From the IMG/VR virus record IMGVR_UViG_3300046542_000086, positions 1-64,000 of that record: a stretch of 64,000 nucleotides of DNA. The stretch is one strand, 5' to 3'. Shown one piece after another: positions 2,902 through 4,995 of this stretch. The number at the start of each line of letters is the position of its first letter. Positions within the stretch are counted from its first letter, which is position 1. The notes beneath the pieces were generated by a model that did no database searches, was not told where the DNA came from, and saw nothing but the letters and a program-made list of their open reading frames with translations. This stretch comes from a virus. Position numbers and translations under genes: made by a program.

Positions 2902-2943
2902 GCATAAAGCCCCTCACCGGATAACCAGCAAGGGGCTTTGCGC
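2902..2943 (-). terminator. Terminator ending the large non-coding stretch
   Basis: AAAGCCCC and GGGGCTTT pair around an 18-base loop, followed on the minus strand by TTTATGCC. It lies at the 3' end of the ORF-free stretch 2945-3940 and marks the likely end of that transcript. Confidence 0.65.
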
Positions 2944-3940
2944 TTTCTACTCGTCGGTCAGCTATCTGTGAGTGGAGTCAGGTCCCCTCTCGGCCAACCT
3001 CATGGCGTCGGATGTAGCCAGGCGTGTTTTCCCACCTCTCGCTCCTGACAGCGATGAGGATTACGGCTAGAACGTACGCACCCCTCCAAATGCCCGGCTC
3101 GGCTGGTAAAGGTAGGATTCCCGATGCGTACTCGATTTACTCTAAAGTAAACCCCCTAGTGTATTACCCTAAGTCTGGCCAGACCGAAGGAGCAATAGAC
3201 TAGAGGCTGCACTTTACCGGGGTGACCAACTATAATGTCGCACGCCCCGACTCTTTACAACTTGAGCCCTTCGCAGGGGCCCCGTATCCTTTACATCGGG
3301 TCTGAGTGCGAGTCAGGTTCCAATGCTTCCTGTAGTACGTCTGCATTCCAGGATGAGGTTGCAAACGCTCAGCCCTTACCGGGCGGAGATACGTGATCCT
3401 CCGCACTCGCAGAGGACGACGATTTAGTACCCCCGAACCTACCAGCTCTCTTGGACATATAGTCGTTTGATTTTGGCTGTGGACGGGGGAATCAAGCTAC
3501 CCTCTCTCTTTGAGTCGTCTACGCTTACAGATTTGCCTTGAAGGGGATCTGATTTGTGGTCCGGTCCTAAAAAGTAGTAACCATATCCTACGACGAACAG
3601 GGGATTAGCCTGTGAGGGTACAACTTAGGGTGAGCGGGAAAGCCGAAACCTTCCAGACAGTTAGATGCCCGACGGGGTGGGGCCTGTCCAAGAGTTGGGT
3701 AGATAAAGTCCAACTCAAGACTTGCGATACGCTCACTTAGGGAGCCTTCTCTCTACGTCGGGAAGGTTTATGTTCCGTTGCGCAGTACCATGACCTCGTT
3801 TGACCGAGAGAAGACATTACTCTTTACCCCATTAGTTCCCTTATCCCTGATTACCCTGCGCGTCAGGTCGAACGTAGATAAGGTAGGCGCGACAATGTCG
3901 CCTCGTTTTACTTCTGTTCCCTAAGGAACCTTCTAATGGG
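2905..3940 (-). ncRNA. Large structured non-coding RNA candidate (about 1 kb)
   Basis: No reading frame of useful length exists here on either strand. Read on the minus strand it is full of stem-loops: GTTCC/GGGAAC near 3916-3935, GAGTTGG/CCAACTC near 3690-3717, GCCC/GGGC closed by TGCGAA near 3262-3280, and TTTACT/AGTAAA near 3135-3152. It sits directly 3' of tRNA-type elements and ends in a terminator. Size and position beside tRNAs recall the large ornate phage RNAs GOLLD and ROOL (known families), but no sequence match to them could be tested. The strand is inferred from the neighbours and the terminator. Confidence 0.5.
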
Positions 3941-3941
3941 C

Positions 3942-4070
3942 ATCCACCGGCAAGACTCGAACTTGCGACCTCCCGCGCTTCCCTCGCGCTAAACCACCCT
4001 CGCTACCGAAGTAGCTATCGATGGAGCCTTGGGATTAGACGAGTGTTCTAACCGACTGAACTACGGTGGC
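3942..4070 (-). tRNA. Interrupted tRNA-like gene (about 55-nt insert in anticodon loop)
   Basis: A normal 5' half (acceptor GCCACCG, TA, D-arm GTTC/GAAC with GG in the loop, stem CTCGT) and a normal 3' half (stem GCGGG, AGGTC, T-arm GCAAG TTCGAGT CTTGC, acceptor CGGTGGA) are separated by 62 bases where 7 are expected. Six of seven acceptor pairs form; 1-72 is G-A. The insert contains two hairpins (GCTAC/GGTAGC and GCGC/GCGC). The anticodon cannot be assigned and CCA is not encoded. It could be a split or intron-bearing tRNA, or a decayed fusion of two tRNAs. Confidence 0.4.
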
Positions 4071-4085
4071 GACTACAACTTAAAT

Positions 4086-4173
4086 TGGCGGAAGAACAGA
4101 GATTCGAACTCTGGGGGCTGTTACACCCGACGGTTTTCAAGACCGTTGCCTTAAGCCACTCGGCCATCCTTCC
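4086..4173 (-). tRNA. tRNA-Ser (anticodon UGA)
   Basis: Complete class II tRNA. Acceptor GGAAGGA/TTCTTCC (one wobble), D-arm GCC/GGC, anticodon stem ACGGT/ACCGT with loop CTTGAAA, long variable arm, T-arm CAGAG TTCGAAT CTCTG, discriminator G and encoded CCA. It reads UCA-type serine codons. Confidence 0.93.
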
Positions 4174-4923: not shown

Positions 4924-4995
4924 GTCTTCTTAGGAGAATCGAACTCCCGTGAGTCGCCTGTGTGGCAACCGTTCTACCATTGAACTATCGAAGAC
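4924..4995 (-). tRNA. tRNA-like gene, possible Val (CAC), non-U33 loop
   Basis: 72 bases with a good D-arm (GTTC AATGGTA GAAC) and T-arm (GGGAG TTCGATT CTCCT). The anticodon stem GTTGC/GCGAC holds the loop CACACAG, giving CAC in the anticodon position but A instead of the near-universal U at position 33. The acceptor GTCTTC/GAAGAC pairs over 6 bases. No CCA is encoded. The T- and D-arms make a tRNA origin likely; the charging identity is not secure. Confidence 0.55.

Follow-up and report, generated by a model that had tools for sequence, protein, structure and literature searches.

The gene-free kilobase at positions 2905-3940 of the window (the 64,000-nt stretch of DNA analysed here, part of an 81.7-kb IMG/VR virus record) is, judged by comparison with related sequences, two separate structured RNAs, both non-coding and both on the minus strand. 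We refer to them as RNA1 and RNA2; their elements and neighbours are listed in Table 1. RNA1 appears to be an undescribed and widespread family of phage RNAs, and RNA2 is, as far as its sequence distribution tells, a new and narrowly distributed large RNA. The literature covered, from which preprints and subscription papers were mostly absent, contained no description of either. The same contig encodes a phiKZ-type RNA polymerase beta subunit, the terminase large subunit, a tail sheath and a UvsX-like recombinase.

Table 1. Features of the RNA1/RNA2 locus in window coordinates.
Feature	Position	Strand	Basis or remark
RNA1, ~115-nt conserved structured RNA	3827..3941	minus	blastn, pattern scans, alignment; covariance-model match 3819-3946, 127.2 bits
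RNA1 P1, 5' strand, pairs with 3828-3835	3933..3940	minus	28-sequence alignment
RNA1 P1, 3' strand	3828..3835	minus	28-sequence alignment
RNA1 hairpin P2, whose loop is the break point in permuted L080, L086, L087, L088	3916..3929	minus	
RNA1 hairpin P3 (AGGCG...CGCCT), best conserved block, preceded by conserved UAAAACG	3885..3903	minus	
RNA1 P4 (3876-3883 with 3839-3846), capped by P5 (3864-3867 with 3855-3858)	3839..3883	minus	
Separate hairpin TCTTCTCTC...GAGAGAAGG between RNA1 and RNA2	3745..3814	minus	
Junction where relatives L013, L020, L046, L062 carry a nuclease gene absent here	3738..3739	minus	
RNA2, ~830-nt structured RNA	2905..3738	minus	4-sequence alignment
RNA2 5' domain, 91% identity in the more divergent L062	3492..3738	minus	
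Terminator-like hairpin AAAGCCCC...GGGGCTTT, RNA2 3' end	2906..2939	minus	L020 keeps most of it and shows compensatory changes
tRNA-like element directly 5' of RNA1	3942..4070	minus	Rfam tRNA 42.4 bits; no ARAGORN call
tRNA-Ser (TGA), next gene upstream within the tRNA cluster	4086..4173	minus	ARAGORN; Rfam tRNA 54.5 bits

The preliminary description had pictured an ORF-free kilobase beside a tRNA cluster, folded as a structured RNA, read from the minus strand and closed by a terminator at one end. Most of this was borne out. The longest ORF in 2905-3940 has 59 aa, and substitutions in RNA2 number 81, 94 and 92 over the three codon positions, with no periodicity and no third-position bias; a protein-coding reading was rejected on these grounds. 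The neighbours are tRNA-Ser and more tRNAs, and these flanking tRNAs and genes also lie on the minus strand, in agreement with the orientation proposed. The minus strand folds at -372.9 kcal/mol, its shuffled versions at -340.8 on average (z -3.3, n = 20 shuffles, none as low), and the plus strand reaches a z of only -1.7 (20 shuffles). Folding of a single sequence is weak evidence, so the case rests on the comparison of relatives, in which both RNA1 and RNA2 covary. RNA1 does so on the minus strand, and the RNA2 alignment has an energy of -221 kcal/mol in sense versus -190 kcal/mol in antisense. As to the terminator, the strong hairpin stands, but its U-tract is weak and a consensus scan did not call it. 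The limits were drawn too narrowly, as the RNA-bearing stretch reaches beyond them, to the tRNA-like element. No sigma-70-type promoter was found near the RNA1 copy of the window; another promoter type would be expected, since the phage carries a phiKZ-type RNA polymerase subunit. We also observed a weak tRNA match at 4924-4994 (31.6 bits) without an ARAGORN call, and the cluster has several odd or degenerate tRNAs.

What did not survive the comparison is the proposal that the kilobase is a single RNA. When the window was set against L013/L064, L020, L046 and L062, a clean break appeared at 3739|3738. All four relatives hold an SNase-family nuclease gene of ~150 aa at this point (in L046, the Pfam SNase domain scores 44.4 bits, with a cut-off of 21), and L020 and L062 add extra tRNAs. 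Because a protein-coding gene stands between RNA1 and RNA2 in the relatives, one 1-kb RNA was rejected. With that gene absent from the window, the single kilobase is only apparent and is best read as a deletion product. A search of the 81.7-kb contig, run without a positive control, did not find the nuclease gene elsewhere. RNA1 was present without RNA2 in 16 phage records that were searched whole, several of them fragments. The separate hairpin between the two RNAs keeps its stem in the relatives while its interior changes, and in L062 a tRNA separates it from RNA1. A second stretch of ~360 nt, present in L020 and L046 and missing from the window near 2760 (2758-2762), adjoins the start of the downstream gene.

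RNA1 is built of five helices, with P1-P4 meeting in a four-way junction and P4 ending in P5 or in a tRNA-like elbow. In the alignment of 28 sequences, every cell of P1, P2 and P5 was paired (100%), as were 93% of those of P3 and 95% of those of P4; overall, 97.2% of cells were paired, and 22 of the 30 pairs were altered on both sides. The 8-bp P1 was paired in all 28 sequences, with both sides changing in 6 of its 8 pairs and up to five pair types per position. The covariation score was 0.653 versus 0.162 after shuffling, and none of 500 shuffles reached the former value. With the 3' partner slid by 1-3 columns, 32-49% of cells were paired, down from 97%. The covariance model made from these 28 members recovered others, outside the training set, at 44-107 bits. 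The core has many invariant unpaired bases, including UAAAACG, GGUAAUCAG and GGGAAC, and the conserved loops of the P4/P5 region are ACG..CGACC and GGUAAUCAG. The P5 loop holds a self-complementary CGCG in most members, the window copy included, replaced by CGATCG or CGTACG in two longer ones. A kissing-dimer site in this loop is a lead only: pairing with the conserved upstream CG..CG would explain the loop equally well, and there are members that agree with neither.

Searches with blastn located a block of ~90-120 nt (window 3941-3821) in the Pseudomonas phages D6 and Psa21 and in phage TPWB-08, unannotated and within a tRNA gene cluster each time. Vibrio phages also carry RNA1, a rearranged form occurs in the E. 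coli phage CUS-3, and, with the contigs that pattern scans added to the blastn set, RNA1 is found in about 40 IMG/VR contigs. Among whole phage records with a match (41-344 kb), exactly one copy was present in 14 of 15 and two copies in one. The jumbo-phage contig L016 has copies at 2651-2775 and 3242-3366, about 590 bases apart, the second with the longer self-complementary P5 loop CGATCG. Plasmids contained no DNA similar to the RNA1/RNA2 stretch; bacterial genome contigs gave 0 and then 2 pattern matches, neither being RNA1 by the covariance model. Several other pattern matches were set aside for want of a convincing RNA1 score, namely L077, L091 and the near-identical copies of one coding-looking region in L067, L073, L075, L083 and L089.

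In the window, the tRNA-like element that precedes RNA1 retains intact acceptor, D and T arms, with ~60 nt at the centre of the anticodon arm, where 5 nucleotides are usual. Of the 32 listed RNA1 loci, 31 have, by eye, a T-arm sequence and an acceptor strand immediately before P1. An automatic test recorded them in 19 of the 32, against 0-4 at shifted positions of the same size; this count is lower than that by eye since the scan had its anchor misplaced by 1-3 nt in some rows. The elements are heterogeneous, their anticodon loops are often odd-sized, and some may be working tRNAs. The exception among the 32 is Vibrio phage 1.106.O. There, no tRNA accompanies RNA1 and a consensus terminator comes after it, and this copy indicates that RNA1 is a unit of its own.

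RNA1 also occurs in permuted gene orders. In the four copies opened at the P2 loop (Table 1), a tRNA or tRNA-like stretch joins the strands of P1 (by eye), and these forms score 53-70 bits in the covariance model. Copies opened at P4 follow the order AAUCAG-P4'-GGGAAC-P1', then P1-P3-P4. This set comprises L066, L069, L071, L074 and L079 (examples of the matches at ~20-27 bits, which count as relatives only via the kept P4 and not by score), L078, L082, L084, L085 and L092, together with coliphage, Hafnia, Aeromonas and Acinetobacter copies. Its members were gathered by a P3-anchored pattern and partly sorted by eye, and their P1 and P2 are less uniform. At least 7 P4 pairs were formed in 14 of 15 members, versus 30 of 210 cross-pairings between strands of different members. 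In several of the forms examined, a tRNA-like elbow replaces hairpin P5. In CUS-3, the P4-open RNA1 is flanked by the antiterminator gene Q and the holin gene. Of 5,426 complete E. coli genomes, 116 contain at least 80% of the CUS-3 element. Earlier reports of natural circular permutation concern hammerhead and twister ribozymes, 5S rRNA and group II introns and, at the level of the gene, tmRNA and tRNA (PMC10085705).

Two tRNAs embedded in RNA1-type elements are unusual in themselves: that at L029:2469-2537 has a UGA anticodon without a long variable arm, and that at L078:7352-7416 has a 6-base anticodon loop. We also noted a conserved tRNA-like element (GTTGTGGTGAATGCGCAGGCTGATGCG ... GCCGGAGATCAGCACCGGT..CACAAC) in phage P1 (L101:690-870), HK629 (L102:690-840) and mEp460 (L103:690-860), which has no Rfam match and in which a variable insert, in CUS-3 the RNA1 core, takes the place of the anticodon arm. 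It follows tRNA-Asn and tRNA-Thr in phage P1, where more than one tandem copy appears to be present after the two tRNA genes (L101:690-1060), and it lies upstream of the holin gene in HK629. Partial matches to it were found in 109 phage records and in 806 of 5,426 E. coli genomes.

For RNA2, the alignment consists of four closely related sequences, in which many helices are invariant, and its consensus has 228 pairs in 37 helices. Both sides changed in 40 pairs versus 20.1 after shuffling (0 of 500 shuffles as high), and in 3-9 pairs in slid registers. Relative to controls in which columns were shuffled with conservation and gaps preserved, the consensus energy had a z of -8.0, and 31 compensatory pairs had full support versus 4.7±2.1 (maximum 10). 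From 3738 to 2905, identity is 79-82% in three relatives. The more divergent L062 keeps mainly the 5' 247 nt as its only long preserved part, and much of its 3' part is lost or replaced. Exact-pattern scans, together with 20 records searched in full, placed RNA2 only in the window and four related contigs. In alignment columns about 385-470 and 500-625, L013/L064 tracks the window and then L020, so that RNA2 looks mosaic, as if recombination had swapped helices between lineages.

We consider it moderately probable that two independent structured RNAs became adjacent here through loss of the nuclease gene, RNA1 being processed by way of its tRNA-like neighbour and acting in trans, and RNA2 being an ornate RNA specific to its lineage. 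RNA1 would be made within the transcript of the tRNA operon. Most likely, the tRNA-like element serves as a tag for processing, and the host enzymes that mature tRNA 3' ends would cut after the acceptor stem and free RNA1, with P1 as the closing helix; such release is suggested by the position of the element. In copies with a tRNA between the two strands of P1, removal of that tRNA by these enzymes would yield an RNA1 in two pieces, comparable to split tmRNA. In the infected cell, RNA1 would then work in trans as a stable, folded molecule. The main rival for RNA1, which we think unlikely, makes it a self-cleaving ribozyme that cuts beside the tRNA-like element and trims tRNA 3' trailers in the manner of theta ribozymes, for which such processing has been proposed (PMC10879173). 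This role would fit its location, immediately after the 3' end of a tRNA or tRNA-like element, as well as the junction core with many invariant unpaired bases and the natural permutations opened at P1, P2 and P4; apart from RNA1, such permutations are on record for hammerhead, twister and a small number of further RNAs (PMC10085705). However, no Rfam ribozyme family matches, an invariant cleavage-site context was not identified, Vibrio phages have copies without a tRNA, and in copies embedded in tRNA-like elements cutting would destroy the fold. That RNA1 and the tRNA-like element are tRNA genes decaying without function is barely credible. The odd anticodon arms, and the several elements not called by tRNA finders, would fit decay, but decay would break pairs, and the covariation contradicts it: P1, P2 and P5 stay fully paired across the 28 sequences while their letters change.

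On the side of RNA2, a molecule ending at the terminator-like hairpin is envisaged, probably a structural or scaffold RNA, as has been proposed for GOLLD and ROOL. Its main competitor is a cis element, either a structured 3' UTR of the nuclease mRNA in the relatives or the leader of the minus-strand gene starting at 2760. In the relatives, the start of RNA2 indeed lies only a few bases from the stop codon of the nuclease gene, and a gene on the same strand follows RNA2. We nevertheless hold this doubtful, as RNA2 is kept in the window though the nuclease gene was not found in the contig, a negative obtained with no positive control; the terminator-like hairpin separates RNA2 from the downstream gene; and 830 nt with 37 helices are far above the usual size of a leader. 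It is very unlikely that all of 2905-3940 works as one RNA in which loss of the nuclease gene fused RNA1 to RNA2. The two are contiguous on the minus strand, share one terminator-like hairpin at the end, and have distant parts paired in the minimum-energy fold; this reading must contend with the coding gene between them in four relatives and with the 16 records in which RNA1, closed by its own P1, is present without RNA2. A very divergent member of GOLLD or ROOL is more improbable still. RNA2 resembles these families in size, phage host, tRNA neighbours and terminal hairpin (PMC12286853), but neither model matched the window (E up to 10) or the contig, the ROOL run having had no positive control. 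A joint reading that goes further is tentative: RNA1 might be the core of a new functional RNA class, possibly catalytic, and RNA2 a third nanocage-type phage RNA beside GOLLD and ROOL. In this joint reading, RNA1 would be a portable four-way-junction module set on tRNA-like scaffolds in at least three permuted or embedded arrangements, with hosts spanning 47-kb Vibrio phages, P22-like coliphages and, at the upper end, jumbo phages.

Few non-coding RNAs of phages are on record; a 2021 paper counted 21 (PMC8545117). RNA1 adds a strongly covarying family across very different phages, with natural permutations of a kind seen in only a handful of RNAs (PMC10085705). Its presence in the isolated phages D6, Psa21, 1.106.O and CUS-3 makes the role of non-tRNA RNAs in phage tRNA clusters testable now. 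RNA2, in turn, offers a new large RNA for asking if cage-like assemblies are general among giant phage RNAs.

With respect to known families, Rfam 15 matched only tRNA in the window, in the 32 related RNA1 loci and in RNA2, and permissive searches (E up to 10) gave chance-level matches far below the family cut-offs. Neither GOLLD (RF02032) nor ROOL (RF03087) had a match in the window at E up to 10 with permissive filters, nor in the whole contig. In control genomes, GOLLD signalled only below its cut-off and ROOL nowhere, so the contig-wide negatives are supporting evidence and not proof. The preliminary description had named both as similar RNAs and foreseen a new class if neither applied; by the Rfam models, the stretch is neither, with the dedicated ROOL search lacking a positive control. 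GOLLD is a large structured phage RNA near tRNA islands, many members of which exceed 800 nt (PMC12286853). RNA2 is similar in its ~830 nt, its setting in the tRNA cluster of a phage and its terminator-like hairpin end; it differs in having no model match and in occurring in five related contigs only, and the likeness is one of size and setting. ROOL is an ornate RNA of phages and prophages, also near tRNA islands, with a solved example of 659 nt (PMC12286853). RNA2 is likewise a large phage RNA near tRNAs but does not match the ROOL model.

The stable RNAs C and D of phage T4 are small, lie in the phage tRNA cluster and have no assigned function. By description, RNA1 resembles them in setting; no T4-type phage was among the blastn matches listed. 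AgvB and AsxR are anti-sRNAs that bind Hfq, and the Pas sRNAs were identified as RNAs bound to it (PMC4104026, PMC13192938). They share with the CUS-3 form of RNA1 that they are non-coding RNAs of lambdoid prophages of E. coli; the AgvB and AsxR models (RF02702/RF02703) gave no match, and in the CUS-3 copy and its relatives Rfam found only tRNAs. Hammerhead, twister and other Rfam ribozymes, as well as group I/II introns, had no match in the window and the 32 related loci. The theta (HDV-like) ribozymes of gut phages are placed with tRNAs and have been proposed to process the tRNA 3' trailer (PMC10879173). RNA1 likewise adjoins the 3' end of a tRNA or tRNA-like element, but it is a four-way junction enclosed by P1, its covarying helices are nested and do not form a nested double pseudoknot, and it has no Rfam match, HDV-type models included (E up to 10). 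In the case of tmRNA, neither ARAGORN nor Rfam called one, and a tag reading frame and pseudoknot ring were not identified. The inner and outer tRNA-like elements also differ in the RNA1 forms, in contrast to tmRNA. Nevertheless, P4-open RNA1 resembles permuted, two-piece tmRNA in that a tRNA-like domain carries a large structure in place of its anticodon arm, and in both, the gene order is circularly permuted.
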